Source: Bryoerythrophyllum caledonicum
Taxonomy: Eukaryota > Streptophyta > Bryopsida > Pottiales > Pottiaceae
NCBI GenBank assembly: GCA_963971425.1
Contig: OZ020514.1
Span: 18,139,406 to 18,203,405, forward strand
Reading direction: 5' to 3'
DNA length: 64,000 bases
This document shows positions 22,561-64,000 of this stretch, in pieces (positions within the stretch are counted from its first letter, which is position 1; each line of letters opens with the position of its first letter). The notes beneath the pieces are model-generated. The model was given only the letters and a program-made list of their open reading frames with translations. It did no database searches and had not been told where the DNA came from. The position numbers were made by a program, and so were the translations under genes.

Positions 22561-22596
22561 ACGCCAATCTCAACCGAGCTATCTCCCTCCGTGGTA

Positions 22597-22980: not shown

Positions 22981-23261
22981 AACGTATGCTATGTTCGAGT
23001 GCAGTGCCTGGGTATCCGATTTGCGATGTGGTTCTACGCTTTTGGAGGAGACATATGCTTTTATGTTGGGGGTAGCGGAATCATGTAAGCACAAATCAGT
23101 GGAGATCCCTGCATGTCATTGCAACGATCCTCATTCTCCGTTGGAACCTCAATTGGAGCTCACACGCCGCATTCGAAAACTGTGGATGCTATTGATGCTC
23201 CATTGCTTTCAGTGGACTCTTCTACTCCGTTGTTGGCTTGCACTATTCAGTGGCGACCACT

Positions 23262-41925: not shown

Positions 41926-41929
41926 CTTA

Positions 41930-43270
41930 GTCTTGATCCACACTTTCTGTGAGGATCTGTAGATCCGCTACGTGCGAGAGTGCACGCAATAGAGAGACGA
42001 CGACGTAGGGTCTGTGCGAAGGCGGTGGTTGCAAGTGCGACTTCGGGAGCTTGCTGAAGGTGGACGGGCGTAACGTCTGGGCGAACGACCTTGGGAGCCG
42101 CGGCGATGGCTGTGGTGGAGGAGCTACAGACGAAGCTGGACCCGGAGTTGGAGTCCTAAGTGGCATTCGGCGCTGCTGTGGTGGTGGTGATCGTGGTTTT
42201 TGACTTTTGTGTGCAGAACGTCGGTGGCGGTGAGAGTTCACTCAATGTGCAGTTGCGCAAGGAGCTGGACCAGTTTGCGTCGCTAGTGCATTTCTTTAAC
42301 TTGCCAGGGCTTAAGACGCGCCACGACAATGTCAACATCGTGGTAATTTGGGAGACCGGAGCAGGGATCCACGTGAGAGCTCCCACGCCTGCAAACGGCT
42401 TCGTCGCCTTGCGACCCCTTCTCTCCGGGCTGTGGAGAAGAGAATGCAAGTTACAAAGGCAGGAGCAGCTTGGAACCAGATCTTACCATCCTTCCCAAAA
42501 GTAAATTGGACCAGGATCTCACCATCCTCTCCATAGGTGACCCACCTATGAAGAAAGAGCCTCTCTGCACAGTGAACTGCTTCCGCGTTGATCTAGTACG
42601 TGGGTCGGATGGCGTGACCTATTGGTGCGGTGTGAGGAAGGCGCAGGCTGTTCGAGTGGGGACTGCTCGCGAAGCTGAATCCGTTGGTGAAGGAGGTCGT
42701 GCCGCCGTCGTTGGCGGACAGGACGATTACGTCGTCCGGGGGCTCGTCCATGGAACAGGCGCAAAGGAAGGTGGACGCTGACATTTGATCTCTTGCATGG
42801 TACTTTGCAACATACTCTGCGAGTCTGAACTTCTGCGAGTGCGGGAGAAGCTTGTTGTGCCAGAGGCGGAGTGGCCTCGTGCGATTGACGAACTCATGAG
42901 CGAGAACCACATTGAGGAGGCTGGCGTTCTTGGTACATGAAATTAGTTTAAGAGTTACGTCGTGGCTGTCTCGTTGAACAGGGGTTCCCAAATGGATGTC
43001 GAAGGCCAACAACATCTCATGTAGAGTGGTGTCGGCGATTGCGGCACCAGCCCTGCGCGCGCGGCGTGCAAGTACCAGCGACGGGGTTGTGGTTTACGCT
43101 GGTCGATAGACCCACTGGTCTCCAGTTCGGCGCTTTTCAGACACCAACATAGTGTTGATGCAGCACCAAGCATTAGGCTATCGTGCGGCATTCACCAGGA
43201 GCAACAACTTTACGCCGGATGCACAAATGAACTACAGGGTGTGGTGCATGAGCGAGGAGTGAGAGGTATC
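41930..43270. other. GC-richer block with overlapping ORFs on both strands
   Basis: The minus strand has 140- and 104-codon ORFs (43015-42593 and 42241-41927) and the plus strand a 114-codon ORF (42160-42504). A plus-strand reading LLAKLNPLVKEVVPPSLADR near 42665 also looks protein-like. I could not assign a family or decide the coding strand. It may be captured host sequence in the leader of the DNMT element, since it lies beside the TACCCGG array that precedes that element. Confidence 0.25.
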
Positions 43271-43319
43271 TCTTCAGACGCAGGAGGGTTCAGACAGACA
43301 TAGCGCAAACAGGCACAGA

Positions 43320-43669
43320 CAGTGTTCGCTAAGGGTGTCTCCGACTCAGTCTGTTGGTTTATGGCTTATACCCTGTTGATGATCTATACCCGGCTACGGT
43401 GTAGTACCCAGTCCTTGCAGATGATACTTGGTCCTCACAGCTGATACCCGAGACATCGGTTTATACCCGGTTGTGATTGAGATTCGGGGCAGATATTGCT
43501 ATCCACGATAGTGATTGATATCCAGGGAGAGGTTGATATGTGGTTTTGGAACTGGTACCCTGTTTGTGTTTGAGACCCTCTTGTTTGTTGTTACCCTGTC
43601 GGCCGTGATACCCTTTCCAAGCTTATACCCGGCAGGCTTCCGACACTCGGACTGGGTCATGATACCCGG
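43320..43669. repeat. Degenerate TATACCCGG/GATACCCGG array, left part
   Basis: GATACCCGG or TATACCCGG recurs about every 20-45 bp with variable spacers. It stops exactly at the left end of the gypsy element and resumes at 58414 on the far side, so the element has split one array. Confidence 0.8.
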
Positions 43670-44412
43670 TGTGAGCCAAATGAACCACCCCCTAACGGGT
43701 GGCTTATCTTGAACACAAGACCCTAAGTGTGGGATGCAGCCCCTTGTTCAAACACCCTTCAACCATTCATACAAGCACGGTGACCCAAGGTGTGGTCACT
43801 CAAGAAGGTTCATTAATGATTAGTGTTGTGATGGCTAGATTCAGCCTTAAATTAAACCCAACTTTTAAACAAGCATAAGTTCCACCTCAAAGCTCGGTTT
43901 TCAACGTTTTAAAGCTCAATTAGGTTCAATTCCACCTTGTGAACTTGATTAGAACCTCAACAACCAATTCCAGAATTAAGTGCGACCCTGACGGCAGTGG
44001 CCAGCAGACAGGTTTCTTCTTATTATTCCCAAAGTTTAATTCTTCATTATCTTCGTGGTTATGACTCCGTTTTCTATGTTTGTTTTTTGTATTCTTATTA
44101 GTTTTTCTTGCTTAACACGATGGCAGCCTTCAATTAACCGTTTGACTAAATCCTGGACCCACGGCCAACGACCAGCAGTGTACACTTAACATATGCGTTT
44201 ATTCAAGATCATGCACCACACATTCACGTGTACACCTCATACATTTGCACAAGTGATCCTACTCGAAACTTACACCATGCATGAGCCTCCAGCTGCATTC
44301 ACTTACTAATGACGATTAAACTGATTGTTGGGTTGAACATATAGCAAACCCTAATCCTAGTAAAAAATTGGCAGCGCTTCCGCGTGATTTCTGTATTTAG
44401 AAAATTAGGGTT

Positions 44413-45255
44413 GGGTAGAAGTCCACTAAGGTTACTCACTTTTGGGCAAAAAAAATATACTGCAGAGTATATTTGTTTTGAAGCCCTTTGTTAAATTGTT
44501 GTTGAACGCCAACCGTCCATTGATTAGGTGTAAAGAAATCATGGCCAATAAAATGTTAGGTGAACAGAAAATATCTTGAAGAAAGTGCTGATTTTTTGGA
44601 CTTTGTGTTGTCATAACACATGTCGATTTGTAGGTGGCCGAACCCTTTCCCGAGATGAGTACATTGCATACTGCAGAGACTGAAAATATACCAAATATAC
44701 TACGCAGTATATATGTTGAATCAAGGCACCAAAAACTAGGTTTTGAAGAAAATGATGGAAGAAAAAAGTTTTTTTGAAATTTTTTTATGTACCAAGATAG
44801 ATTTTTGTATACTAATGAAGGTTGGATAAGAATTTGGAGCAAAAATCAACATTAATTTCTTATTTAGGCTTCTTGAAAAAATAACTTATTTTTTATCAAT
44901 AAAAGCCAAATTAAGTTTTGGATCTAGAATTTTCAATCATAATGTAGAAGCACATTATGGTATGAAAATTCGAAGTATTTTACCTCCTGAAACTCTAAAA
45001 AAAGTATATTTGTCTGATTTGAGATACCTGTGACATGTATGTAGTTATGAAAGATATACTTCTATTGGCCAAACCATGGGCCGGAACTCTAATTTTTTAG
45101 GATTCTCATATTGCTATTGAAGTAAGAAATTATATTTCACTAGAAGAATTCCAAAATCAATCCTACATTGGCACTAGGTAGCAAACGAAGGCTCGTGACT
45201 TGTCCCGACACCATTTGTGACAGGTTTTTCATACTAGCTTAGTCGACCGAGACCC
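44413..45255. mobile_element. Non-autonomous TIR transposon inside the 3' LTR
   Basis: The left end GGGTAGAAGTCCACTAAGGT and the reverse-complemented right end GGGTCTCGGTCGACTAAGCT form the inverted repeat. GGTT is duplicated on both sides (44409-44412 and 45256-45259). The other LTR has the empty site with a single GGTT at 56115-56118. Same family as 23808-24373. It is AT-rich, with repeated ATATACTGCAGAGTATAT-like blocks and no transposase. Confidence 0.88.
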
Positions 45256-45359
45256 GGTTCTTATCATGCACGAGGATTTGTTCACTAGTCCAAGGGAGAG
45301 GAGAGGTTCCCTGATTTAGTTCGGTTCACCCTCCATCCTTAGCCGTCGAACTTCAGCTC

Positions 45360-46740
45360 CAGCTCGTGTGGTCTTGACCCTGTTGTTCGTCCTGCTTGCT
45401 CTAGCTCTTGTGATCATGCTCGTGATTTGGCGTTCTAGTGCTTGCTCCAGCTCGCGTGATCTTGCTCGTGATTCGGCCTTCTTGTGCTTACTCCAGCTCG
45501 TGTGATCTTGCTCGTGATTCGGCGTTCTTGTTCATCGTGCTTACTCCAGCTCGTGATCTTCACCCTCTTGTTCATCGTGCTTGCTCCAACTCTTGTGATC
45601 TTGCTCGTGATTCGGCCTTCTTGTGCTCAGCTCCAGCTCTCGTGATCTTCACCCTCTTGTTCGTCGTGCTTCCTCCAGCTCTTGTGATCTTGCTCGTGAT
45701 GCGACGTTCTTGTGCTTGCTCCAGCTCGTGTGATCTTGCTCGTGATTCGGCCTTCTTGTGCTTACTCCAGCTCATGATCTTCACCTTCTTGTTCGCCGTG
45801 CTTGCTCCAGCTCTTATGATCTTGCTCGTGATTCGGCGTTCTTGTGCTTGCTCCAACTCGTGTGATCTTGCTCGTGATTCGGCCCTCTTGTGCTTACTCC
45901 AGCTCGTGTAATCTTGCTCGTGATTCGGCGTTCTTGTGCTTGCTCCAGCTCATATGATCTTGCTCGTGATTCGGCCTTCTTGTGCTTACTCTAGCTTGTG
46001 TGATCTTGCTCGTGATTTGGCGTTCTTGTTCGTCGTGCTTACTCCAGCTCGTGATCTTCACCTTGTTGTTCGTCGTGCTTGCTCCAGCTCTTGTGATCTT
46101 GCTCGTGATTCGGCGTTCTTGTGCTTGCTCCAGCTCATGTGATCTTGCTCGTGATTCGGCCTTCTTGTGCTTACTCTAGCTCGTGTGATCTTGCTCGTGA
46201 TTTGGCGTTCTTGTTCGTCGTGCTTACTCCAGCTCGTGATCTTCACCTTGTTGTTCGTCGTGCTTGCTCCAGCTCTTGTGATCTTGCTCGTGATTCGGCC
46301 TTCTTGTGCTCAGCTCTAATTCTCGTGATCTTCACCCTCTTGTTCGTCGTGCTTGCTCCAGCTCTTATGATTCTGCTTGTGATGCGGCCTTCTTGTGCTC
46401 AGCTCCAGCTCTCGTGATCTTCACCCTGTTGTTCGTCGTGCTTGCTCCAGCTCTTGTGATCTTGCTCGTGATTCGGCGTTCTTGTGCTTGCTCCAGCTCA
46501 TGTGATCTTGCTCGTAATCCGGCCTTCTTGTGCTTACTCCAGCTCGTGTGATCTTGCTTGTGATTCGGCCTTCTTGTGCTTGCTCCAGCTCTTGTGATCC
46601 TGCTCGTGATTCGGCGTTCTTGTGCTTGCTCCAGCTCTCGTGATACTGCTTGTGATTCGGCGTTTTTGTGCTTGCTCCAGCTCTCGTGATCTTGCTCGTG
46701 ATTCGGCGTTCTTGTTCGTCGCTCGCCTTCGCTCTCGCTC
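45360..46740. repeat. Tandem repeats in the 3' LTR
   Basis: Units of about 45-60 bp are built from TTGCTCCAGCTCGTGTGATC, TTGCTCGTGATTCGGCGTTC and TTGTGCTTACTCCAGCTC. Open frames on both strands result from repeat periods divisible by three and are not genes. Confidence 0.9.
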
Positions 46741-47659
46741 TAGTGATTCAGCATGTGCTCCTAACCTAATTTTTCTCCTGTTCGTGGCCGGGGCTTCCGG
46801 CTCTCTCTCAGTTTCTCAGTCTCTCTCCCTGTTCTCTCTTCTCACCACATTCCTCGCACACTAGCGAATGAGCCTCTCCAGGGGGTAATCCCCCCAAGCC
46901 TTTGCTCTCCTTACGTTCCCAAGGATGTTCCCCGCCGCCTTTTCCACCTTCCATTAATGACTTTCCTCTTAAAACAACTATTAACCTATGACTACCTATC
47001 TTCGTGCCTCCCTTGCATTAATAAAAGTGGGTGTCCCACTAACCAAGGAATATCTAAATCTCCTACTTTAATTTCATGCCACATGGAGTGCGCATGATCT
47101 CCAATTAGTGAGCTATTAAGCTAATTCCAAGGATGCTAAATCTAATTAATCTACCTAGATTGAATTCCCCTTGCTTGGGGTAATTCCAAATTTTACCTAG
47201 TAATTGGTGAGGGGTTTGCCCAAGCCTTTTGGACCTTTTTAACTACTTTTTTAAGGGCTTTTTAAGCCTTCTTCTTTTTTCCTTCCCCTCACCATCATTT
47301 CTCTTCTTCTCCTAATTTTTTCTTTCGTGATTTCCTCATCGTGGCCAATTGCCGTCCATGACTCGGTAGGAGGTAAATTCTTCTCCACCACTTCTATTTC
47401 TACTTCTTTTCTATTGTTTTGTTTTTTCTACCTTTTCTCATTTTTTCCTTTCTATTTATTTTTTGGTTAACTTCATAAAATTCTTGGTTGCCACAATGTG
47501 GCTTCTAATTAAAGAATTAGCGCATGGAAAGGCTATTTAGCCATCTTGATCAAAAACCATGAACTAACCAATGGGATAACCTATTCCCATTACTTTGTTA
47601 ACCTTAATGGACACAATGCGTGGTCCATTCGTCACCGTGAGCCGTTTTTGCAGCTCACC
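46741..47659. other. Unique part of the 3' LTR
   Basis: Non-coding and pyrimidine-rich on the plus strand. The same sequence recurs at about 57490-58413. Confidence 0.7.
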
Positions 47660-47805
47660 CATGGCGGCCATCTGGGACAACTCGAAGAGGCAGAGAATCC
47701 AGCTCTTGCTCATGGGCACACGGTTATGTCCTATCTCTTTGTGTTCGAAGGACCCATGGTTGCCACCAAAATTAAGGAGGTCTTATTGTAAAGGTTGTGA
47801 ACAAA

Positions 47806-49629
47806 TCACACCTTGTACTCTTTGCAATGGTTGCCCGACGTTCGCGTGGGGAAATCCTCGCCATTAAGGGTTTGGAGTTGAACGGAGTTGTTGGGGAAGA
47901 CCTCTTTCACGAGATATGGCCCCAACCACAAGGCATCAAACTTGCCAGGGAAATCCAGTCTCCTCGCATCTTGGAGGAGGACTAGCATGCCTGGTTGTAA
48001 CGATCGAGCCTTGTTTCATTTGTCGAAGGCGATCTTCCTTTGACGTTGGATGGCTTCCATGTTCTGGGCGCTCCATCGGCGCATCTCATCAAGCTCCTCC
48101 AATCGTTCTAATCGATTGGCTAAGGACGTGGCCATGGACCACCGTTCGGTCACGGCAACTCGTAGGGAAGGAATCTTGAACTCTATTGGCAAAATGGCTT
48201 CAATGCCATACACCAACGAGAAGGGAGTAGCATGGGTGGTTACCTTGAAGGTGGTTCGGTAAGCCCATAATGCGGCGGGGAGTTTAGTGTCCCAATCCCT
48301 CTTGGAATCGGTGACCGTCTTCCTCAAAATATTCACGAGGGTTTGGTTGACCCGCTCGGTGTGACCATTGGTTTGAGGGTGATAAGGGGTGGTCTTACGA
48401 TGGTTGATCTTGAACCGGGTGGTCATGGCTTCGATCATCTCGTTCAAAAAATGTTTCCCCCTATCACTAATGAGGATTTTGGGACAACCAAACCTGGTAA
48501 TGATTTGTTCGAACAAAAACTTGGCCGCATGATTAGCATCATTGGTTTTCACGGCTCGAGCCTCGGCCCACTTGGTGAGATATTCGGTTGCTACCACAAT
48601 GTACTTCATTCCACTAGAAGAGCTAGGGTGCACCTCCCCCACGTAGTCAATACCCCACTTCTCAAATGGGACCAAGGGCAAGGATACCCGTAGTGGCATG
48701 CTCATTCGAAGGTCATTTCGGGCATACCGTTGACAAGTGTCGCATTGCTTGGTGTACTCATGGGCGTCTTGGAACAATGTGGGCCAAAAGTAACCCGCGC
48801 GAAGGACTTTTTGGACCGACAAGGTCCCAGAGAAGTGCCCTCCACACGCGCTGTCATGGCAGGCCGAGAGGATTGTGGGGATTTCCACGGACGTCACACA
48901 TCGACGTAGCATGCCGTCAACCCCACGACGGTACAATTTGCCTCCTACGATGGTAAAGTGGCGGCTATGGAGGCGAACCTTCCTACGCTCGTTTTTGGAC
49001 AATGAGTCCGATAGAAGGTGGGTGGTAAGGAATTCGGCCACCAAATTATACCATGAGGGAATGGAGGATACTTTAAACAAGTCCTCGTCTATCAAGGCTT
49101 CATCAATGGGGACTACACCGGTTTCCTCTGAGAGCCGTGAGAGGTGATCCCCTTGAAGGTGCATCTGTCCCGGGCGGTATTCAATCGTGTAGTCAAACTC
49201 CTCTAAAAGTAAGACCCACCTCGCTAAACGACCACTCAAGTCCGCCTTGTTGACAAGGTACTTGATGGCCATGTGATCCACGTAGAACACTACGGGGTTG
49301 GGTAACAAGTAGTGGCGGAATTTTTTGACCGAAAAGACCATTGCCAAACATTCACGTTCGGTGGTGGTATAGTTCTTTTCGGCAGGGTTTAATTGCCTAC
49401 TTGCAAAGGCAATGGGGTGGTCCTTGCCATTAAGGCCCGCCGGTTGGCACAAGGTGCTCCCTACTGCCACCACCAAGGCATCCCAAAAGATGTGGAAAGG
49501 CAACTCCCAATTTGGGGGCCTACAAACCGGGTAGGTGGTTAATTCCTTCTTCAAAACTTCGAAGGCTTCTTGGCAACTTGGGGTCCATTCAAACCTCACG
49601 CTCTTTTGGATGAGCCTAGTGATAGGCAT
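47806..49629 (-). pseudogene. Gypsy RNase H and integrase part of pol
   Basis: RNase H comes first (FHIFWDALVVAVGSTLCQPA, then YTTTERECLAMVFSVKKFRH, then GDHLSRL). The integrase zinc-binding H-H-C-C follows (HDSACGGHFSG...CDTCQR), and then the catalytic core with D in GIDYVGE, D in ISDRGKHF and E in HTERVNQ (the DDE triad, all present). A single in-frame TGA at 48016 precedes a C-terminal SH3-like tail (LGPYLVKEVFPNNSVQLQTL). The reading frame differs from the RT part because of a C-run near 49712-49718. Integrase inserts the cDNA; RNase H removes template RNA. Confidence 0.9.
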
Positions 49630-49679
49630 GGCCTTTGTGGCATAGTCATGGATAACCTCTCTATACCACCCTATATGCC

Positions 49680-50579
49680 CTAGGGTTTTTTGTATCTCTT
49701 TGACATTTGTGGGGGGTGTAACTCCACAATAACCTTCACCTTGTAAGGGTCCGGCTCTCTACCCTCCTTCGAGACCACGAATCCTAGTAAGACCCCATTT
49801 TCTACGGCAAGGAAGATCTTCTCGGGGTTGAGAGCGATGCTGGTGCGCCTACATTGCTCAAAGCTTTGCCTCAGACATGCTAGGTGCTTGTCCTTCGTGG
49901 ACTGGGTGCTAAAATCATCAATGAACACCATCATTGATTTGTGCAAGAGGTCTGAGAAGGCATAGGTCATGGCCCTCTAGAATGCGGAAGGGGCATTGCA
50001 AAGCCCAAAAGGCATGACCAAATAAATGAATATACCCCACGGGGTAGTGAAGGCGGTCTTGTGATAGTCCTCGGGGGCAATGGAGATTTGATTGTAGCCC
50101 GAGTAGCCATCCATAAACGTGTAAAGCTCATGACCACCTACCTCCTCTAAAATGGTGTTGATAAATGGCAAGGGGAAGTGGTCTTTTTGGGTGTGGTGGT
50201 TGAATTTCCTATAGTCAATGCACACCCGTAGCTTACATTTTTTCTTTTTAACCAAGACCATGGAGGAGACTCAATCGGACATCTCCACGGGTTTAATGAA
50301 CCCCGCTTGGAGTAGCTTTCTCAACTCTACCTTGACAATGAGCTGTAGGTTGGGATTCATGCGCCGCTCTTTTTGTTTGATGGGAATAGTGCCCGTGAGA
50401 AGGGGAATGTGATGTTGTGTCACCGCCGTGGAAATACCCTTGAGGTCTTTGTATGACCATGCAAAAATGTCCCGAAACTCGACCACTAGTAACTTGTACT
50501 TCACCATCTCTTCCTCGGTCAATCCAACACCCACCTTTATACTACGCTCTTCTTCCTCCTCATGAGAGACTACCATCAA
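49680..50579 (-). pseudogene. Gypsy reverse transcriptase part of pol
   Basis: CIDYRKFNHHTQKDHFPLPF, FMDGYSGYNQI, MPFGLCNAPSAF and MMVFIDDFST are the conserved RT blocks. FIDD keeps both catalytic aspartates. In-frame TGA at 50271 and TAG at about 49971 interrupt an otherwise constant frame. A frameshift at the C-run near 49715 separates it from RNase H; in the other frame the protein continues as NVKEIQKTLGHIGWYREVIH. Confidence 0.9.
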
Positions 50580-50831
50580 CTTCCAATCATCATGATGTAC
50601 GTGTGGTTGTTGAATAGGTCCTTTATACCAGTCATTTGGAACTTGGGGGTACGTTGCCCCCTAACCGCTAGCTAGAATACCGGTGGATGTCCTCCTAAAG
50701 TGGAGAGATAGGTTGAGAGGGCCCTCATCGATTAACACCTCTAACTCCATCCCTTGTGTGCCTTCGATATCCACTCCGAACACTGCTGCGGGTTCTAGGT
50801 CATCCAGGAGGGGAACCAAGCCCACATCCAT

Positions 50832-51554
50832 CTAGGTCTCCACTTCAATCATCTCACTATCCACGAAATGCACGGACATATCTTCATCCGCGCTTGAGGT
50901 GGGGTGTTCTCTCAACCACTCTACAAATTCACCGCTGGGGACCCACTCATAAAGATCCGGTCGCATGCTCTTGAATGGCATCACGTGGGCCTTCGAGGGT
51001 TGGGCTCGATCCACCGCCTTGTGGGGCGCAAACCACACCCTTTTGGGAGGCTCCTTTGTTAGAACCTCTTGTAATTCATCCTCCGACGAGCCCATGCAAC
51101 CGTGGCATAGTCCTAGCCTACTTGGTTGGATATGGACCGTAATAGAGTTCTCTGGTGGACCATAGGTGATGTTTGGGTTTAGTCCTCCCCATTCTACCGT
51201 GGCATTGGCAATTCGTAACCAAGGCCTACCTAGTAGCAAGGGATATGCCTCCTTATTGGAGTGCATTCGAATGACTTGGAAGGTGAGGGAATACTCTATT
51301 CCCCCCGTGGTCACTTTACAACCACTAATTTGGCCTAACGGGGCCTCCAAGCTTTGATTAGCCATGTTGATGATGTACGGTGAAGGTTCCGTGATGTCTA
51401 GGCCTAGCTTCTCCATGGTTGAGAGGGGCATAATGTTCAAACCACTACCACCGTCCACTAGTACATTGGGTACCACCTTGTCCACAATTGAAACCTCGAT
51501 TTGAACCGCCTTGACCTCGATATTGGGGTGTGCAGTTTTAACACGAGCTGCCAA
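50832..51554 (-). CDS. Gypsy aspartic protease
   Basis: VLVDGGSGLNIMPLSTMEKL carries the D-G/S-G-S retropepsin active site, and AYPLLLGRPWL is the hydrophobic-hydrophobic-G motif near the C-terminus. An intact 240-codon frame lies between gag and RT. The C-terminal third, acidic and Trp-rich (DLYEWVPSGEFVEWLREH), has no clear assignment. Confidence 0.85.
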   Translation of the reverse strand: MAARVKTAHPNIEVKAVQIEVSIVDKVVPNVLVDGGSGLNIMPLSTMEKLGLDITEPSPYIINMANQSLEAPLGQISGCKVTTGGIEYSLTFQVIRMHSNKEAYPLLLGRPWLRIANATVEWGGLNPNITYGPPENSITVHIQPSRLGLCHGCMGSSEDELQEVLTKEPPKRVWFAPHKAVDRAQPSKAHVMPFKSMRPDLYEWVPSGEFVEWLREHPTSSADEDMSVHFVDSEMIEVET

Positions 51555-51569
51555 CCTAACCCTTGCCTT

Positions 51570-52036
51570 AGGCCTTCATTTCACTGGGGTGCCCGACCTA
51601 AGGACCTTCCTCATGGGTGGTGATACCTCTAATAGTTGGGCTATGGTGATGTCCGCCTTGAGGCGACTCAAATCCGCCAATAAATTGTAAGGCCCTTCTC
51701 CCACGTGTTCCTCGACACGCCGAAATGTGTTTACCTCGGGACTAGGGAGTGGTGGACCCTCCTATGGTCCTTGGAGGGTGGACAAGGGTATTCGAGACCT
51801 AGGTGTCTCATGGGAGGACCTTAAGTTGGCTCGTTTAGTGCCTTCCACCGCCTCCTTGGTGGTATCGTTTAGGTCAGAGAAGTGAGGTGAATCCTCCTTT
51901 GAGGTCTCACCTTCCTCTGGTATGGGTGGAGGCGGACTCGAGTACCTAGGCTCCCGCCGGTTAGACTGAGTCTGGACTGCCAATGTGGGTAACTCACAAG
52001 TTTTTGCTTCCTTGTTTGTGCTCACCTCGTGGAAAA
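51570..52036 (-). other. Gag-protease linker region
   Basis: Pro/Ser-rich frames (RREPRYSSPPPPIPEEGE) continue from gag at 52220 down to 51762. The stretch 51570-51760 has a broken coding signal. Confidence 0.5.
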
Positions 52037-53877
52037 CTACATTGAGCTCAGTGAGGGAAGGGTTGTGGGTGGACACGATTTCACTTGACATGGTGACATA
52101 ACACACATCTTGTCGGCCTTGGTTTTGGTTGCCCCCGGGGTTTTGTCCTTGGTTTTGTTGGCCCCCGTGGATTTGTCCTTGGCTAATAGGGATGTAACCG
52201 GCCTTGGTATTAATCCCCATTGGAGGAGTGTGATTTTGGCGATTATTGTTGTAGTCGTAGTAGAGACTAGGCGGCCAAGGGTATTATCGGAGGTGGGATT
52301 ACGTGCACCTCTCAAATGGTCTTGGGCTTGTTGAGGGTAGTTCCCTGGTGGAAAGGGCATGGGAATTACCTTGTCCGGTCTATGACATACTTGGGTAGGG
52401 TGATTACCCCCACAGTTACCACATACTACTCTACTTTCGACCCAACATTGCCCCGGTGCGTGTCTCTTGCCACACGTGTGATGGATTTCATATCGTGGTC
52501 TCGGAGGTCCCCCATAACCTTGGCTTGGAGATGCATAGCCTTGCGGTACGTAGCTAGTTACCGCCGGCGGTTGGTTCCTATGGGGAGGCACATACGGAGG
52601 TTGAGTGGCTTGGTGTTAGGGTGCTGCCACTGGAGTGGTGCAAAAAGGGCTGGTGTGGCCTGGTTGACCATATTGAGTATACCATAGGCCCGAAGCATGT
52701 CTACCGGACTCTATGGGTGGAGGTGTGGGGTTAGGGACTTGGTTTTTAATCAACAAAGCCATTTGGTCTTGCATGGCCTTGATTTCTTGAGCTAATTGAT
52801 CCTGGAAGCCTTGTTGACCTTGGAGGATTTTGTTCTTCATTTCCTCCTTCCATGTGCCCCGCTCTCCATGATAGGTGAGCTCAGGAAGAGCTACTGGTGG
52901 CCTAACGTCCAAGGGTGGAGCATAGTAGTTCCATGTAGGAACTTCTGCACCCGTGGATCCTTGGTTAGGTTCTAGGACTGGTCCCTTGCCTTTGGCATGG
53001 ATGGGCATGAAACTAGGAATATGGTGATCTTCCTTTCTCCACATGCGCTCTAGGTCTCGATCAACTTGCTCTATTAGCCTAGCTTGTGCCTTGGCCTCGT
53101 CTAACGATGCGGGGCGGACCTTCAAAATCTCCCTAATGGTTCCCTCATTGTTGAACCCTTGGATAAAGAATTGGGTTAAGGTATCATTGGTGAGGAGGTT
53201 TCCCACGAATCTTGTAACCACCAGGTCGAATCTCCTAATGTATGTCGTGATATCCTCCCCTGGACCTTAGCGTAGCGCGGAAAGGGCTGTGAGGGCATTA
53301 CTTTGACCGACTTCGGGTCTAAAGTGCTCCAAAAAGGCCCTCATGAGGCTATCCCAATCCTGAAAGGTGTCGGGGGGTGGTTCTTATACCACTCGTAAGC
53401 GGCATCCTTCAAGGTACACGAGAACCACACTAGGAAATACCCGGTGTTGGTGATGAGGCAAGTAGTGAGGAGCTCTAGAAACCGTTCCACGTGTGCGGAG
53501 GGGTCTTCATCCTTGGTTTCTCTAAGTGTTGGCAAGTTGGGTGGCATAGGCGCCACTTGCAAGCCCTCGGGTACTACGATTGGTAAACCCCTTGGCTGAA
53601 CCAAGGGGTTGATGGGAGGCCGAACCGGGGGTGGTCCTCCAGAGGCCATGGTTGGGGCTGAGGTGGTGCCTCGTGGACTAGTGGTGTTGGTGGTGTTTAC
53701 CGGGTCTAATGAAAGGAAAGGAAAAGATGGGGGAAAAGGAAGGGGAGGAGCTGGGAGAGCCTCTAGCTGAACCTCTAAGAATCCTTCCGCCGTGTCCTCG
53801 GTGAGTTCCCTAGACCTACTCCTTCGTTTCCACGGTGGTGTGAGGAAAGGTCTTTGGGACCTTGTGGCATGGGACAT
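52037..53877 (-). pseudogene. Gypsy gag polyprotein
   Basis: Begins at ATG 53877 (MSHATRSQRPFLTPP), with a basic, Pro-rich N-terminus. The capsid-like retrotrans_gag domain follows (DPSAHVERFLELL, SCTLKDAAYEWYKNHPP near 53400; TRFVGNLLTNDTLTQFFIQG after a break at about 53260-53340). A Gln/Pro-rich region then leads to CGNCGGNHPTQVC, a CCHC-like zinc knuckle, near 52420. Breaks at about 53340 and 52613. Gag forms the particle and binds element RNA. Confidence 0.85.
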
Positions 53878-55353
53878 CTATTCTAAGGTCCAAAGGTAAG
53901 GTCTTGTCGTTCGTTGATTGTAGTCATGTCCCCCAAAAGGTTTTCCGTTCAAGGTTTGAGGGTCATGGGTGGATCTACACAAAGCACGGCCTATCTCAAA
54001 CGATGAGTGGGTGTTTTCAACACTCCTACTCCCAATACTATCACGAGGATGGACTGACTCAAGACGAAGACCAGAGTTTTTAATTGTGGAGTTTTAGCTC
54101 GATGAAGCCGCCGAAGAATCCTATTAAGGACTACCCTTCAAGGGTAAACGACAAAAGGCTAACCGAATTGAGGAATGTCTCCACGAGCATCACCCCGTTG
54201 GAAAGCTGTTCCCCAATTGGCGCCACACGGTACAAATCCTTACTGTGGGGCTGACCTAGACCTCAACTTGATAAAGGTAGGGTTCCTCGATATCTTCGGT
54301 ATCCCCCTTCCACCTTTTACCACTTGAGCTAGGCATTACCCACTAGGAGGAAAACAACACAATCACGGAACGGCATACAACAATGTGTGTAGAACAATGT
54401 TATCATCGTGAAGAAGACATACCTTGATGCATCTCCAGCCACCCTGTCACCATTAGTTGAAAACGACCGTGGACCTAATCGCACTCTAACGATTCTACGG
54501 CCAACCGATTTAGAATCATGCAATGTTTTAGAGGGGGGAGAACTTACCTTTTAGCAACTCCAGCCACTCCACATGTTAGCACAAGGTTCGTTGCAAGCAA
54601 TTCGTGGTTGGCCAACCCTAGAGTTTCTAAGGCAATTGTTCCACACGGCTCAAGTGGGGAATCAAGGTTTTCTTAACCCTAATGTGGTCACCTCATCCAA
54701 TTAACCCTATTTAACTATTCGCGGTCCTAAGAGAAGGTGTAGGGCACATACCGTATGCAGCGCTCCTTCCAATCAACACCCCTACGTCTTGGATACATCC
54801 ACGACTCCAACTCCCCTCCAAGGTGGCTCATTTACACATACATACCATTAACTTGCAACATTTGATTCAACCATTCAATTCACACCAAGTTGTTTTTACC
54901 TTGGTGGTTAGTCTAGCGCGGGGGATAGGAAGGGGCGCCCTTGTCCCATACCCGGGCTCATGCACCCTTCCCCTTCGACCTAGGAGCTCACTGGAAATCC
55001 TTGTGGATTTCCGTGGGAGGGCCTCAACCTTTCACCCCTAGGCCCCTCGCTCAACTCAAGCCACAAGCCTAGAAGGGGATCCCTCCAACACAAGGTGCTT
55101 CGTGGTTGGAAGGTCGAGAAACCACACTCCCTTCTAGACCCCCACCTTTAAACACAACTCGGTATTCAAGCATTCACAACACTTCCAAACATTCACAAGG
55201 CATTCACAACCCAACAATCACTCAACCATACATGAGCAAGTTGGGCACTTACCTCAAGCTACCCCATGCTGCTCCATACACCATAAGGCTATTAGCGTTT
55301 GTACCTACATTCAACGATAGAATGATTAACACAATCAAACCATGAACACGCCT
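53878..55353 (-). other. Internal leader between primer-binding site and gag
   Basis: About 1.5 kb of non-coding sequence with short spurious ORFs. A leader of this kind normally carries packaging signals; none can be pinpointed here. Confidence 0.5.
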
Positions 55354-55372
55354 CCTCCCGGCAGACGCACCA
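55354..55372 (-). promoter_or_regulatory. Primer-binding site
   Basis: On the minus strand, TGGTGCGTCTGCCGGGAGG starts three bases inside the 5' LTR edge. It resembles the plant TGGCGCCGTTGCCGGGGA site complementary to a tRNA 3' end (probably tRNA-Asp), with several mismatches. Confidence 0.7.
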
Positions 55373-55375
55373 AAA

Positions 55376-58300
55376 TGTGAGCCAAATAAACCACCCCCTA
55401 ACGGGTGGCTTATCTTGAACACAAGACCCTAAGTGTGGGATGCAGCCCCTTGTTCAAACACCCTTCAACCATTCATACAAGCACGGTGACCCAAGGTGTG
55501 GTCACTCAAGAAGGTTCATTAATGATTAGTGTTGTGATGGCTAGATTCAGCCTTAAATTAAACCCAACTTTTAAACAAGCATAAGTTCCACCTCAAAGCT
55601 CGGTTTTCAACGTTTTAAAGCTCAATTAGGTTCAATTCCACCTTGTGAACTTGACTAGAACCTCAACAACCAATTCCAGAATTAAGTGCGACCCTGACGG
55701 CAGTGGCCAGCAGACAGGTTTCTTCTTATTATTCCCAAAGTTTAATTCTTCATTATCTTCGTGGTTATGACTCCGTTTTCTATGTTTGTTTTTTGTATTC
55801 TTATTAGTTTTTCTTGCTTAACACGATGGCAGCCTTCAATTAACCGTTTGACTAAATCCTGGACCCACGGCCAACGACCAGCAGTGTACACTTAACATAT
55901 GCGTTTATTCAAGATCATGCACCACACATTCACGTGTACACCTCATACATTTGCACAAGTGATCCTATTCGAAACTTACACCATGCGTGAGCCTCCAGCT
56001 GCGTTCACTTACTACTGACGATTAAACTGATTGTTGGGTTGAACATATAGCAAACCCTAATCCTAATAAAAAATTGGCAGCGCTTCCGCGTGATTTCTAT
56101 ATTTAAAAAATTAGGGTTCTTATCATGCACGAGGATTTGTTCACTAGTCCAAGGGAGAGGAGAGGCTCCCTGATTTAGTTCGGTTCACCCTCCATCCTTA
56201 GCCGTCAAACTTCAGCTCCAGCTCGTATGATCCTGACCCTGTTGTTCGTCATGCTTGTTCCAGCTCTTGTGATCTTGCTCGTGATTTGGCGTTCTAGTGC
56301 TTGCTCCAGCTCGTGTGATCTTGCTCGTGATTCGGCCTTCTTGTGCTTACTCCAGCTCGTGTGATCTTGCTCGTGATTCGGCGTTCTTGTGCTTACTCCA
56401 GCTCGTGTGATCTTGCTCGTGATTCGGCGTTCTTATTCATCGTGCTTACTCCAGCTCGTGATCTTCACCCTCTTATTCGTCGTGCTTGCTCCAGCTCTTG
56501 TGATCTTGCTCGTGATTCGGCCTTCTTGTGCTCAGCTCCAGCTCTTGTGATCTTCACCCTGTTGTTCGTTGTGCTTGCTCCAGCTCTTGTGATCTTGCTC
56601 GTGATGCGGCGTTCTTGTGCTTGCTCCAGCTCGTGTGATCTTGCTCGTGATCCGGCCTTCTTGTGCTTACTCCAACTCGTGATCTTCACCTTCTTGTTCG
56701 TCGTGCTTGCTCCAGCTCTTATGATCTTGCTCGTAATTCGGCGTTCTTGTGCTTGCTCCAGCTCATGTGATCTTGCTCGTGATTCGGCCGTCTTGTGCTT
56801 ACTCCAGCTCGTGTGATCTTGCTCGTGATTCGGCGTTCTTGTTCGTCGTGCTTACTCCAGCTCGTGATCTTCACCCTCTTGTTCGTCGTGCTTGCTCCAG
56901 CTCTTGTGATCTTGCTCGTGATTCGGCCTTCTTGTGCTCAGCTCCAGCTCTCGTGATCTTCACCCTGTTGTTCGTTGTGCTTGCTCCAGCTCTCGTGATC
57001 TTGCTCGTGATGCGGCGTTCTTGTGCTTGCTCCAGCTCGTGTGATCTTGCTCGTGATCCGGCCTTCTTGTGCTTACTCCAGCTCGTGGTCTTCACCCTCT
57101 TGTTCGTCGTGCTTGCTCCAGCTTTTGTGATCTTACTCGTGATTCGGCCTTCTTGTGCTCAGCTCCAGCTCTCGTGATCTTCACCCTGTTGTTCGTCGTG
57201 TTTGCTCCAGCTCTTGTGATCTTGCTCGTGATTCGGCGTTCTTGTGCTTGCTCCAGCTCGTGTGATCTTGCTCGTAATCCGGCCTTCTTGTGCTTACTCC
57301 AGCTCATGATCTTCACCCTCTTGTTCGCCGTGCTTGCTCCAGCTCTTGTGATCCTGCTCGTGATTCGGTGTTCTTGTGCTTGCTCCAGCTCTCGTGATAC
57401 TGCTTGTGATTCGGCGTTTTTGTGCTTGCTCCAGCTCTCGTGATCTTGCTCGTGATTCGGCGTTCTTGTTCGTCGCTCACCTTCGCTCTCGCTCTAGTGA
57501 TTCAGCATGTGCTCCTAACCTAATTTCTCTCCTGTTCGTGGCCGGGGCTTCCGGCTCTCTCTCAGTTTCTCAGTCTCTCTCCCTGTTCTCTCTTCTCACC
57601 ACATTCCTCGCACACTAGCGAATGAGCCTCTCCAGGGGATAATCCCCCCAAGCCTTTGCTCTCTTTGCGTTCCCAAGGATGTTCCCCGCCGCCTTTTCCA
57701 CCTTCCATTAATGACTTTCCTCTTAAAACAACTATTAACCTATGACTACCTATCTTCGTGCCTCTCTTGCATTAATAAAAGTGGGTGTCCCACTAACCAA
57801 GGAATATCTAAATCTCCTACTTTAATTTCATGCCACATGGAGTGCGCATGATCTCCAATTAGTGAGCTATTAAGCTAATTCCAAGGATGCTAAATCTAAT
57901 TAATCTACCTAGATTGAATTCCCCTTGCTTGGGGTAATTCCAAATTTTACCTAGTAATTGGTGAGGGGTTTGCCCAAGCCTTTTGGACCTTTTTAACTAC
58001 TTTTTTAAGGGCTTTTTAAGCCTTCTTCTTTTTTCCTTCCTCTCACCATCATTTCTCTTCTTCTCCTAATTTTTTCTTTCGTGATTTCCTCATCGTGGCC
58101 AATTGCCGTCCATGACTCGGTAGGAGGTAAATTCTTCTCCACCACTTCTATTTCTACTTCTTTTCTATTGTTTTGTTTTTTCTACCTTTTCTCATTTTTT
58201 CCTTTCTATTTATTTTTTGGTTAACTTCATAAAATTCTTGGTTGCCACAATGTGGCTTCTAATTAAAGAATTAGCGCATGGAAAGGCTATTTAGCCATCT

Positions 58301-58413
58301 TGATCAAAATCCATGAACTAACCAATGGGATAACCTATTCCCATTACTTTGTTAACCTTAATGGAAACAATGCGTGGTCCATTCGTCACCGTGAGCCGTT
58401 TTTGCGGCTCACA
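55376..58413 (-). repeat. 5' LTR of the gypsy element
   Basis: Runs from TGTGAGCC to GGCTCACA, 3038 bp. It holds the empty site of the 44413 insertion (56115-56118). LTR length is dominated by the tandem array. Confidence 0.9.
56215..57480. repeat. Tandem repeats in the 5' LTR
   Basis: The same TTGCTCCAGCTCGTGTGATC-type units as in the other LTR, with a different order of variants. The two arrays have therefore changed since insertion or during reverse transcription. Confidence 0.9.
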
Positions 58414-58960
58414 CCCGGACTGGTTTCTGATACCCGATTTGGACTCTGATATCCCATTTGGATCTGGATACCCGGTAGTTGGTGCATATCCGAAGAGTGA
58501 GGAGAGTACCTGGCTGTGAGGGATTATATCCGAATGTGCTGATGATACCCGGATGATGCTACTGATAGACGGATGAGCTATTTATACCTGGTTGCTAGGA
58601 ACATACCTGGTTCTGTTATTGATGCCCTGGTCAGGTTTTGATACCTATACCGAAGTCAGAGTTTGATATCCGGGATGTCGGGTTGATGACCTGCAGTCGG
58701 ATTGATAACCTGTAGTGTGGATAGGTCACCTGGAGTGTGGGTTGATACACTATATAGAGTTTGATAATCGGGATGTCGGGTTGATGACCTGCAGTCGGGT
58801 CGATAACCTGTAGTGTGGATTGATAACCCAGAGTGGGACTGATAACCGATAGGGAGGGTGATACCCGCATGGTAGTAGGTACCCGTATTTGTGCACGTTA
58901 CCCAGTTTTGCTATTGATACGCTGCTACAGCTCGTCACCCGTAGCTCTTATTCGTATACG
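58414..58960. repeat. Degenerate GATACCCGG array, right part
   Basis: Continues the array at 43320-43669: GATACCCGG, GATAACCTG and TGATGACCTG units about 20-30 bp apart. A roughly 125-bp internal duplication occurs (TTGATGACCTGCAGTCGG at 58682 and 58779). Confidence 0.75.
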
Positions 58961-59225
58961 ACAAGTGGGGTATCCACATCATATGGTATACGGTTCGCAT
59001 GGTATTCGCATTGAGACCGTATCTGTGGTTGGCATACTTGTACGAGGTTTAAGAAGGGCTTTTATGTGAGATCACCCGAGGATCAAAATTGAATTTGAGG
59101 AGGTTGAGAGTTGATTGCACACTCATAGCGCCTAGTAGGGGGTAAGTGGACGCTTGAAAGCTTGCGGGGACTCTACTAAAATGGTTTGAGGGTTTCAAGG
59201 ATATTGGAGACTTAAGTTATGGACC

Positions 59226-61730
59226 ATGGAGGGAAGAGGTAAGTCTAAGAAACCCGAGAAAACTAGTGGGTCTAAGGAAGAAATTGATGGGGAGGTGTTG
59301 GACACCTTGATTACCTGCTTGCACAACTTGCAAGTGAGAGGCACCCCCTCCGCAACAAGTAGTTGCCACGGGGACTTTGAACTTTCTCCAATAGCCAAAT
59401 CTTGCACGGGGCCCCAGAGTTTGCGTAAACCAGGCACGAAGGTGTTGAGCACATAATCGGTGAAGTATTGGACTTCACTCGGTGGGGTGTAGAAAATCCG
59501 CTCACTTTGGATGAAGGAGGGAATTCCAGCACCTTTGTGCCGCGCTCGTGGGCAAGTGAGGGTCGAAGACTTGGTAACTGGAGGTAAGGCCGTGATTCTT
59601 CGAAATTCTGGGTCAAGCTATAGTGTAGAGGTGGAGGATTTCTCCTCAGGCATCCAACTACCCACATTTTCCCTCATTTTCACTGATTTCGAGAGCGAAG
59701 GGTTCTTATTCCACACTACTTGGCAGTGGGAGGTCAACACGTGGCAAGAGCATGCCTCGAGTGTGTGGGATATTCTTACCTTAGAGTAGTTAGACTGGGA
59801 AATGAAACCTACGATCTATACTCCAGTGATGAGAAGAACCCATGAAGCTTGGCGGTTGTTCGAGTAGATCACGAAACTCATAATCTGGAGAACTAGAAGG
59901 GTCCCGAGTTTATACATAGAAACACTCCCTTCTCAGTAGATGCTAGTGAGAGAGTGTTGACAGAAAATCGAGGTCAACCATAAAAGGTAGAGGAGAGTGA
60001 TTTGCCACTGGTGGAAGAGGAGGAATTTCTAGAAAGCCCGCAAGTGAGTGTTCAAGGCCCAGTTTCATCCACAAAGCCTTACCAATCACATTTTGATTGG
60101 GAGAAGATAGCTTCACCATATGGAGGTGGAGAAAGAGGGGTACGAAGGTTTTCGGGTGCCACGGGCACCATCGAAGTCCATGACTTCAAGAGGGAGTTCA
60201 CCATGTGGTGTGAACTTCAGAAGTCTCGTAACCCCAACTTCAATCCGTACATGGTGTCGAGAGCTTTGTTTGGATGTCTGGAAGGAGCTCCACTGGCGGA
60301 CCACGGAGAGTTCGAGGCGGCTCATTTCACCGAAATCATGGCCTAAAGAGACTTTTACGCACCGAACTACGTGGATGTGTTTGGTGGAACACCGAGGGTG
60401 TCACCCCTACTCTTGTCCAAGGGGAAGATGGAGGAAGGCACAAGCACAACGGAGGATGTGGAGCAGCCAGAGGTACTGGTAAATCATCCACCTCCATTCA
60501 ATCCTACGGTGGGATTCCTCGTGCAACTCCATAGAGACTACCAAGGACAAAGGGCGGATAAGATGAAGGCCCTTCGTTCCTTCACACGTGGAGGTGAGGA
60601 GTCTCCGAGAGAGGCTTATGCGAGATTAAGGAGACTAATCTCAGCCACTCACGGAGTTTCAGAACAACAGGCAGTGCAACATTGGTACAGTATCCTGGGC
60701 AAGAAATTGAAGACCTTGGTTCGCAATGAGGCGTTGCGATTGAGAGTACCCACGTCACTACGATTTGTTTTTAAGACTTCGGAGCGGATTGAGATAAACT
60801 TACTGGAAGAGAAGGCAACCATGGGATTTTTCAAATGTGAAGAGAAGGTCCTAGAGAAGGTCAAGGTGGCCAAGGTGGCTATCCCTTCGTTTACTGCAGA
60901 CTCTAGTGCCTTGTGCTTCAAATGTAAGAAGCCAAGACATCAAACGGAAGGATTGCAAGGAAGGTAAGCCCTCCACACCTCAGACTGGAGGTTTTTGCTT
61001 AGGTTATGGTGCCAAGGGGCATGCACAGGCCAGTTGATGGAAGCTTCATCTAGAGTTGAAGCCCACGGAGAGCAATGGAGCTAAAGGAGGCAAGGACAAG
61101 GAACCCAAGACCACTGGAGGGGAGAAGAAGAACTGGAAGACCAAATTTGCGGAGTTGGAGGCCAAAATAGAAGCTATGAGTGCTAATACTAATGTGGTAG
61201 GTGGCAACCCTCAGGTTACTCCCAGTTTTCATGTTGGGGGCGGTTTTAGCTCCGTGGATGATGAGTTTGGGGACTTCATATTGAGTGGCATGGCACTTGC
61301 CATTAGAGATGGCACACAGGAAGCCTATGCTCTCACACAGAGCCATACTCCAATTTCTAAGGATATTCCACGTGGAGCTACTTCAACTCTGGATCCTTAC
61401 CATGGAAATGATAACCAACAAGCAAGGTTGACACAATCCTTCACGTTAGAAGAGATGGTGCCCACGTTGTCCATGGGGCCTCCACCACGACCAGTCGCGA
61501 CATCCACACGAGCCTCACCACGAGCTGGAGGACTCACAGAAGGTTCGGGAGCACTTATGGAGGCAACTACTTCCGTGTGGGAAGCCTCATTATTTTCTGC
61601 TAAGATGTTGTCAGAAGATGGCTTACGTGTGGCAGAAGTTTACAAGAATGTAGCCTCAATGTGTGAGTTTGACAATTCCACAGGGGTTAATGTGTTGAAG
61701 ACGGAGATAATCAATGCAAAGGAGAGCTAG
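59226..61730 (+). pseudogene. Gag of the DNMT-carrying element
   Basis: N-terminal fragments at 59226-59456 and 59511-59789. The main frame at 60002-60967 has one in-frame TAA (60344). It includes FKREFTMWCELQKSRNPNFN, a capsid-like helix-rich region (RADKMKALRSFTRGGEESPR, YARLRRLISATHGVSEQQAV) and CFKCKKPRH near 60918. After a frameshift at about 60945 the knuckle continues (KRKDCKEGKPS) and a second degenerate knuckle CLGYGAKGHAQAS appears. Then comes a basic, coiled-coil-like stretch (61056 onward, KKNWKTKFAELEAKIEAM). Two CCHC-type knuckles and a retrotrans_gag-like core support the call. Confidence 0.75.
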
Positions 61731-61879
61731 AGTGACAACGTGGAAGGGCTGCTTTCAGCAGTCATGCGTGTGAAGACAATGGCCGCTAGACCTACGATTG
61801 AGAGATCATCCATTACCCCTGGTGTAATAGTGGTTGATAATTCCCAGGTATTTTCCAACTCGTTGGGCCTAAGGGGAAG

Positions 61880-62335
61880 GTTTTTGTACCTCGATGCGTG
61901 CTTCTGGATTCAGGAGCTCAACCTTTGATGTTGGGAGCATTTGCTATTGAAGGGTTGGGATTAACTAGGGATACTTTGGAGAAGTGTCCTTGGACCATTA
62001 GCACATCCATGGGGGCTACAGAGTACGCTACGGGGATCACAAGGATTGAGTTGGTGCTACAACTCAATCAAAGTGATGTGGCAGATGCTAGTTCCATGAA
62101 GGTGAAGGCAATAGTCACGAAGGCCAAGTCATATGATGTCTTGGTGGGCTCGGTGGTGCTATATCCAATGGGATTCACCTTAGATTTATGGGAGGAGTCA
62201 GCAAGCTACAAACCAGGATGGCAAGCAGGAGATGGGCGGAAGGCTCAGCTGCCAGCTCGATTTCTTCGAGTTCTTACAGGTAATTTTGTGGACGTGTTTG
62301 CCTTCTCTGGAGGAATGAATATGAAACCTTCATGA
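61880..62335 (+). pseudogene. Aspartic protease of the DNMT-carrying element
   Basis: VLLDSGAQPLMLGAFAIEGL has the D-S-G active-site motif. YDVLVGSVVLYPMGF matches the later hydrophobic-G motif. A TGA at 62333 separates it from the DNMT in the same frame, so a protease-DNMT-RT polyprotein is likely in an intact copy. Confidence 0.8.
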
Positions 62336-62362: not shown

Positions 62363-63961
62363 TTGGTTGACCACATTTCGGAGAAGGTGGATGTCTATAT
62401 GGGCAACACGAGTGGTGGGGAAGAAGAAGGATATCGACCTGGAATCGAGGCAGCGTGGAGTAACACCACCCGGTTGAGGGAGGCCGCGGAGTTAGCAATG
62501 GAAGAGGCATGGCAACATTCTATGCTACTACAGATGCAACAGGAGCATGGACTTGATCAAGACCTAGGACCTCCATTAGACACTGCCACAATCCATTGGA
62601 AGGCCCCAACAAATGGCATTGTGTTGTTGGAACTATTTGGAGGAATTGGCATAGGATTAGCAGATGTTTTACAAGCTGAGATCAAGGTTAAGCGCTACAT
62701 TTACTTGGATGTGGATGAAGCAGCAAGGCATGTGGCCAAACGTCACACACGGAGACTGAGGACTCAATTTCCAGAATTGTTGGCCACTAGTGCCATCAAA
62801 ACCTCCTTCTCTACACTTGTGGGTGATATTTCCTTGTTGTCAGACGATGACATTCACCGTCTGGGTCATGTGGACCTTGTCATTGCAGGATAGCCTTGCC
62901 AAGGCATGTCTATGGCAGGCAATCAGAATGGGTTAAAGGATTCCCGTTCTTCCAGGTTCTTTGATATGATTCGAGTGCTTCGGTTGTTTCAGACTTCTTA
63001 GAGGCAACCGCCTGGTAATATTGTAGAGAACGTGTCCATAGAGAACAGTTCGAGGTCCAGGACACTCGAAAGTATGCCTAGAATCCATCAGACTCTGGGT
63101 TTCCCAGTGTTAATTGATGCGGTTGCAGTAGGATCCAGGGCACATAGACAATGCTTGTGGTGGACAAACCTGGCACCAACAGAGTTGTTACAGTCCGCGG
63201 CAGGTCGCATTAAACGCCCAAATGTGTATGTGAGTGATACTTTGGATCCTCACAGGACACCACGGCACGTGTATCACGATGACCAGGCACCATTAGCAGT
63301 GGTTAACCGCAAGGAGGAACCACGTAGGGCCTTGCCCACGTTGGTTAGTTTTACACGGTCTTATGCTTTCAAGGATAATGGACATGGGTTTGTTTGGGAT
63401 TCATTGTCTCAGGAGATGGTAGAGCCCAATGCAGATGAAAGGGAGAGAGCCATGGGCTTTCCCACTGGCATCACCGATGTGCTTGGAATTTCAGAACCAC
63501 AGAGACGGTTTCTACTTGGTCAGGCAATGGATTTAAATTATCTGACTTGGATTGTTTCATTAGTGGTTGCTGAACAGAAGCGTTTAGCTTCTAGTTTGAC
63601 GAGTTACGTGGGATATTACGAGTTGCGGGCGGCAAGAGAACCACTTGCCTCTATCAGGGTGACAAGCAAACTGGTTGGGGGCGAGAGGGCCTTTGCACTT
63701 CATCCATGGTATATGTGGGATACCGCAAACATTTTTGCATCCACCAAGGCAACAGATCTTGACTATGGAGGGGAGAACTGGAGTGAAGGGAGCAAATTGG
63801 CTCACCAGAGGATGGATTTGGAGGATGCTGTGGAAAAGATCTTCTTGGAAGAACACACAGCTCTTCACATGGAAGAAATTGACAAACTTGATCAATTAGA
63901 AGGACCTGGGAGCGTTATTGAGGAGGAAGGAGGGAAGTCTCCTTCACAAGAGATTCAATAG
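62363..63961 (+). pseudogene. DNMT3-like cytosine-5 DNA methyltransferase, copy 2
   Basis: Motif I is intact: VLLELFGGIGIGLADVL (SAM binding, about 62620). YIYLDVDEAARHVAKRH follows, with D in motif II position. GHVDLVIAG-stop-PCQGMSMAG comes at 62864-62920, with catalytic Cys codon 62897-62899 and a TAG replacing the Trp seen in copy 1. NIVENV is motif VI. IDAVAVGSRAHRQCLWWTNL (about 63115) is close to the motif VIII region of DNMT3. RERAMGFPTGITDVLG and RRFLLGQAMDLNYLTW (63450-63540) are motifs IX and X. TAGs at 62891 and 62999 are the only breaks in the domain. The rest of the ORF to 63961 (AFALHPWYMWDTANIFAS) has no known domain. The enzyme would methylate cytosine in DNA. Confidence 0.88.
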
Positions 63962-64000
63962 CAACCAAGGGTGGAAAACCTTGCTCCAAAGGAACGGAAG

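Follow-up and report, generated by a model that had tools for sequence, protein, structure and literature searches.

A gypsy-type retroelement family of the moss Bryoerythrophyllum caledonicum with a DNMT3-class methyltransferase and a conserved UAG

DNA methyltransferase (DNMT) domains of the DNMT3 class have been described in retroelements of Klebsormidium nitens and dinoflagellates (de Mendoza et al. 2018, PMC5890265), and the principle is repeated in the available part of PMC12344493. According to the available part of PMC5890265, the repeat structure of the K. nitens element (KnitGypsy) is DIRS-like, the DIRS order being A-coding region-B-A-B, and the reason why retroelements keep DNMTs was left open. 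We describe here a 64,000-nucleotide stretch (the window) of B. caledonicum (assembly GCA_963971425.1, contig OZ020514.1, positions 18,139,406 to 18,203,405). The original prediction was of a DNMT3-like domain inside a gypsy element, and it pointed to captured C5-methyltransferases in dinoflagellates and a charophyte; PMC5890265 bears this out with SymbioDIRS-Dnmt3 and KnitGypsy-Dnmt3. The predicted stretch is a decayed copy (copy 1) of a gypsy-type retroelement that is present in multiple copies, was recently active and has a DNMT in its own protein. DNA methylation is usually directed at transposons; here a family recently active in the genome carries the enzyme, under selection much like that on its reverse transcriptase (RT).

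The methyltransferase domain and its copies

The DNMT pieces of copy 1 (62336-62890 and 63002-63958) continue the frame of a protease open reading frame (ORF, 61841-62332). A common frame with the protease had been predicted and was found, but a TGA at 62333 also splits protease from DNMT in this copy. Two TAG codons interrupt the domain as foreseen (62891, directly before PCQ, and 62999), and the catalytic motifs stand, again as foreseen, in unpermuted order. In the hidden Markov model search with PF00145 that had been proposed as a check, the whole of copy 1 with X at the stops scored 46.1 bits (E = 5.9e-12) against a cut-off of 22, and an own-genome copy gave E = 6.6e-14; neither piece of copy 1 alone reached this model. 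The second piece alone had 166 homologues at E ≤ 1e-3, so the match is beyond chance.

Among solved relatives, DNMT3A scored 74.6 bits, DRM 41.4 and HhaI 34.2, with DNMT2 far down the list, and the first 39 of 50 rows of a structural comparison were DNMT3. By these comparisons the domain is of the DNMT3 class, related to animal DNMT3, which agrees with the predicted type; the permuted DRM type was rejected on motif order and score. Catalytic residues of the element DNMTs were nearly invariant, and ratios of nonsynonymous to synonymous substitution (Ka/Ks) of 0.041 and 0.085 indicated purifying selection, lying below the 0.2 used for the KnitGypsy type. Motif IV was ECQ instead of PCQ in 61 of 144 homologue domains of at least 280 aa (e.g. 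P0154); to our knowledge, the motif IV proline is near-invariant among known enzymes.

The 437-Mb host assembly containing the window was searched for further copies, the counts of methylase places and DNA matches being lower bounds. PF00145 gave at least 123 scored places among 1057 candidates, and in 12 of these 123 the match itself contained a stop; the DNMT DNA of copy 1 gave at least 40 scored matches (625 candidates), 39 of them besides its own locus, at 90–92% identity. Of the 123 places, the 20 whose open frame reached at least 1300 aa were all fetched, a sample that favours intact ORFs but not a stop codon or its context. As an unselected check there were two copies in the window: copy 1, and copy 2 at 22.4-26.1 kb, an older relative that is more decayed and likewise has protease, then DNMT, then RT.

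The gag-protease-DNMT frame ended at a TAG followed by CAACCA or CAATCA in 18 of the 20 fetched copies, one of which (L026) had an extra stop in the first part; L023 was frame-shifted and L031 had a sense codon in place of the junction TAG. RT, RNase H, integrase and a PHD finger followed the TAG in the same frame; this part was unbroken, at 1041 or 1047 aa, in 10 copies and broken or cut in the rest. The genome-wide search that the prediction had called for did find copies with intact frames, with a UAG between protease-DNMT and the same-frame RT part. The fetched copies formed three subfamilies, the closest pair being 99.87% identical over 9346 bases. A methyltransferase of another kind was also seen on a 22-Mb contig of this assembly (L007, G000:C14:16016358-16017317, minus strand): single-frame, bacterial-type and dcm/HhaI-like, with TIGR00675 above its cut-off and HhaI as best PDB match, and possibly acquired by horizontal transfer.

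"Near-intact", as copy 1 had been called, was too generous: its gag frames are broken, its motif VIII stretch is unlike that of its relatives, and RT and integrase past the window are fragmented. A position between protease and RT had also been claimed; there is no RT inside the window, and this was a guess there, but in the genome continuation of copy 1 (L045) the TAG is followed by fragments of RT, RNase H, integrase and PHD, in that order.

The UAG junction and the terminal repeats

The junction was compared in the 20 fetched copies, both window copies and L006, a 9285-base contig with both frames open. L006 came from the second of two genome-contig scans, the first being without a relative; it is filed under a cyanobacterial assembly, is presumably eukaryotic contamination, and its first 127 bases recur at its end, as in assembled loops. 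Copy 2 is 80–87% identical to it in DNA. UAG CAAYCA was kept in both worn window copies and in L006, and this context was common to the subfamilies. The assumption that all stops in copy 1 were decay was rejected, because the TAG at 63959 is conserved.

UAG_CAR_YYA is given in the available part of PMC3542737 as the consensus for efficient tobamovirus readthrough. The element junction fits UAG CARYYA between in-frame parts, as in the type I readthrough motif, and the natural stops ending the second part were TAA or TGA in contexts unrelated to it. Ka/Ks was 0.11 and 0.095 over codons 1-90 after the UAG, indicating purifying selection, and 0.21 and 0.24, with wide limits, over codons 1-45. No Met position after the UAG was common to all four compared copies. 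Because purifying selection is seen directly after the UAG and no Met is shared, translation most likely runs on from the first part into the second.

An A repeat of ~370 bases, beginning TGTCA, was found at the 5′ end of the element and B1-A2-B2, ending GACA, at the 3′ end, the B repeat being ~232 bases long (~107 in subfamily c). The A1/A2 pair was present in 10 of 10 copies having an upstream flank; B was detected in 15 of 20 copies and in none of L021, L022, L025, L031 and L032. Target site duplications (TSDs) of 4 bp matched in all nine tested copies. L030 was excluded from this test, its 3′ end running past its stretch with extra tandem A-B units, possibly a trace of split-repeat element replication. 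The RT-RNase H-integrase (rve) order and the TG...CA ends (TGTCA...GACA) with a short TSD are those of Ty3/gypsy elements, but two full identical long terminal repeats (LTRs) were not found. Because of the split repeats (A at 5′, B-A-B at 3′) we label the element gypsy-type rather than a standard LTR element. Neither L006 nor the window past 58 kb contained a complement of the tRNA-Met primer, up to 2 mismatches being allowed.

Relatives and possible role of the enzyme

Relatives were taken from three protein searches (for the first, the best 120 of 166 matches), among whose listed matches none was named for K. nitens. The named sources were Marchantia polymorpha, Riccia sorocarpa, Calypogeia fissa, Sphagnum fallax, Closterium, Haematococcus lacustris and Monoraphidium neglectum; P0113 and P0231 were filed under bacterial metagenome-assembled genome names, presumably through contamination. 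A scan of viral contigs with a single protein found no relative, and an alignment-based scan gave five weak matches. Among 133 long proteins (P0122-P0254), 19 had RT or RNase H downstream of the DNMT on the same chain (architecture A), 30 had protease-DNMT without RT, 80 had the DNMT after RNase H (architecture B), and 4 showed other or cut-off orders. The second order was seen in three of four named chlorophyte proteins (P0218, P0229 and P0240), P0251 showing the DNMT only. In P0161 (Closterium sp. NIES-53) a copia RT (RVT_2) and a gypsy gag-protease-DNMT share one gene model, likely because the model is a fusion.

Quick trees, of element proteins only, were built from 38 of the 74 proteins of architecture B and 12 of architecture A, together with L006 and three own-genome copies. 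The DNMT tree also contained the window copy and had no outgroup; the RT tree had 15 architecture-A rows (without P0145) and one other gypsy element as outgroup. A single starred branch (99; 17 and 38 rows) split the two orders in the DNMT tree. The second order formed one clade (99) in the RT tree; the first did not in the free tree, and a constraint holding it together was not rejected (approximately unbiased test, p-AU 0.81). The simplest reading is one DNMT capture and one move inside the polyprotein, two captures also being possible.

A PHD finger followed the integrase in 77 of 82 proteins extending more than 230 aa past it. Its nearest solved relatives included CHD4, KMT2D, KDM5, BAZ2B, PHF21A, UHRF1 and AIRE, several of which read unmodified H3K4. 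Among the titles and abstracts listed in literature searches, most subscription papers and all preprints being outside this scope, we found no bryophyte or chlorophyte members, no second architecture, no UAG on the far side of a DNMT and no PHD finger; the available part of PMC7466625, on Physcomitrium retrotransposons, has no mention of methyltransferase, methylase, DNMT or PHD.

What the data show is the anatomy of the element, its conservation and the selection on it. As to its working, we infer, with a probability of about 0.6, that a leaky UAG sets a Gag-like dosage of the DNMT, which is packaged and methylates complementary DNA (cDNA) before integration. Most ribosomes would halt at the UAG and make Gag-protease-DNMT, and a few would read through UAG CARYYA into the full polyprotein. 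The DNMT, in Gag-like amounts, would be packed with RNA and RT inside the particle, and would methylate double-stranded cDNA de novo either there or in the pre-integration complex. A PHD finger of the kind that reads unmodified H3K4 would then guide the integrase in inserting a pre-methylated copy, which on arrival would probably be tolerated or not sensed as foreign.

Several points weigh against such a role. In the available part of PMC5890265 no methylation resulted from the KnitGypsy DNMT when it was tried in yeast, a result its authors held inconclusive as human DNMT3B failed too. Some relatives have one uninterrupted frame (P0148), and with the 80 of 133 long proteins whose DNMT follows RNase H this argues that Gag-side dosage is not needed lineage-wide. 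The junction is absent from two of the 20 copies (the sense codon of L031, the lost frame of L023), although decay explains both. No DNMT was noticed in another gypsy element, nested at 43670-58413 of the window, so cDNA methylation seems unneeded for transposition in this host.

Rather than cDNA, the target of the enzyme after translation might be the host genome or sister copies, where it would silence insertions of the element itself or disturb the marks of the host. Its de novo class would suit that target, and so would the C>T excess in worn copies, by which copies are probably methylated in the genome. Counted on both strands and polarised by two other copies, C>T changes in copy 1 were 40/436 in CG, 53/489 in CHG and 139/2550 in CHH, against 69/3453 for A>G plus T>C; copy 2 gave 68/336, 57/274 and 105/946, against 62/1289. 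The CG and CHG excess over CHH is consistent with methylated cytosines, with a contribution from general C>T bias, and does not tell the acting enzyme apart. The idea in the prediction that the element could maintain its own CG methylation stays hypothetical. Plants methylate transposons in CG, CHG and CHH by their own enzymes, so the excess needs no element enzyme, and the position beside Gag and protease points to the particle; we think a host or sister-copy target unlikely. The place of the DNMT in the Gag-side product would also suit a fold that binds nucleic acid or methylates RNA as part of Gag, with DNA methylation beside the point, and RNA methylation is discussed for the long interspersed nuclear element (LINE) type in the available part of PMC5890265. 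This is rendered quite improbable by the nearly invariant catalytic residues, the Ka/Ks of 0.04–0.09, and DNMT3 as the closest solved class with DNMT2 far down.

In gene models from Marchantia (P0135, partial) and from Sphagnum (P0152) no stop separates DNMT from RT, which would suit RT-integrase expression through splicing that bypasses the UAG, or through internal initiation, instead of readthrough. Predicted introns may be the cause, and the same frame, the coding constraint from the first codon after the UAG, the lack of a shared Met and the UAG CAAYCA context across subfamilies leave these routes only a small chance. Chance landing of a host DNMT pseudogene in one gypsy copy would account for the broken window copy; the same arrangement in 18 of 20 copies and in other species, under purifying selection, has in effect refuted it.

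If the cDNA is indeed methylated before integration, silencing would be a strategy run by the parasite, a direct answer to the question left open in the available part of PMC5890265, and the UAG junction would set the amount of enzyme relative to RT. A wider reading is tentative and, we think, doubtful: a gypsy-type lineage reaching from chlorophytes to bryophytes may have rebuilt an animal-like de novo methylation machine from a DNMT3-class enzyme and an unmodified-H3K4-type reader, made in Gag amounts by a leaky UAG, with cDNA methylated before integration and placed in chosen chromatin. The DNMT would have been captured once and later moved, the protease side being one clade and the RNase H side the other.

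Layout of the window and comparison with known systems

Table 1. Coordinates of the two element copies and the nested element in the window
Feature	Coordinates	Strand	Remark
Left TSD of copy 1, ACTT	41323..41326		Right ACTT at L045:5143-5146, past window end
Repeat A1, 5′ end of copy 1	41327..41697	+	Right limit approximate
Copy 1 5′ leader, part 1	41698..43669	+	Remainder placed by position
Younger gypsy element nested in copy 1 leader	43670..58413	-	Separate from DNMT element
Copy 1 5′ leader, part 2	58414..59845	+	End approximate
Copy 1 gag region, frames broken	59846..61885	+	89% alignment to own-genome copies
Copy 1 aspartic protease core	61886..62071	+	Within ORF 61841-62332; limits mapped
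Premature TGA, protease/DNMT boundary	62333..62335	+	Decay
Copy 1 DNMT3-class methyltransferase domain	62615..63562	+	Frame 62336-63958; domain limits mapped
Premature TAG preceding PCQ	62891..62893	+	Decay
Premature TAG, second	62999..63001	+	Decay
Conserved UAG closing gag-protease-DNMT, proposed readthrough stop	63959..63961	+
CAACCA, fits CARYYA	63962..63967	+	RT frame begins here, continues past window end
Copy 2 protease region, frameshifted	22458..22957	+
Copy 2 DNMT and N-terminal lead	23182..24824	+	Interrupted by insert 23809-24372
Copy 2 conserved UAG, then CAATCA	25090..25092	+
Copy 2 RT portion of second frame, frameshifted	25093..26096	+	Match stops ~26.1 kb

Copy 1 ends at window coordinate 68142, i.e. 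past the window end, where its A2 also lies. A1 and A2 were 97.0% identical (7 mismatches and 4 gaps over 367), by which copy 1 does not belong to the youngest copies; A1 plus leader of another copy matched 41330-41969 at 94.7%. A zinc knuckle lies in its gag at ~60914-60961 (limits mapped from an own-genome copy; Pfam on ORF1 of L018), and PF13975 gave E = 0.015 on its protease, below the cut-off. The nested element is flanked by the TSD CCCGG (43665-43669 and 58414-58418) and appears young, its terminal repeats being ~99% identical outside internal tandem arrays. The insert in the copy 2 DNMT is ~564 bases long, has imperfect terminal inverted repeats (GGGTCA...TGACCC) and resembles by eye a miniature inverted-repeat transposable element. 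A remnant at 3943-4405 (minus strand) matched L006 6949-7403 at 77–85% and is probably terminal-repeat sequence of a copy-2-type element. The region 14001-16000 is AT-rich (25% GC) with numerous internal repeats.

In the tobamovirus type I readthrough signal, as here, UAG CARYYA stands between two in-frame parts; here it lies in a retroelement, between DNMT and RT, as a proposed readthrough site. Chromoviruses (Ty3/gypsy elements with a chromodomain) likewise have a chromatin reader C-terminal to integrase (available part of PMC3605345), but in the present element it is a PHD finger, and a DNMT is added. SymbioDIRS-Dnmt3 of Symbiodinium shares a retroelement DNMT3-class domain in a polyprotein and two domain orders (PMC5890265, available part); it is of the DIRS class with a tyrosine recombinase, whereas rve integrase and 4-bp TSDs are found here. 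KnitGypsy-Dnmt3, compared by its description in the same source only, resembles the moss element in an unpermuted, intron-free DNMT3-class domain within a gypsy-type polyprotein, in DIRS-like repeats and in purifying selection on the DNMT. It is reported for K. nitens, with the DNMT in the Pol ORF. In the moss element the gag-protease frame closes with the DNMT, which thus stands on the Gag side of a conserved in-frame UAG; the integrase is followed by a PHD finger, and there are relatives in liverworts, Sphagnum, Closterium and chlorophytes.
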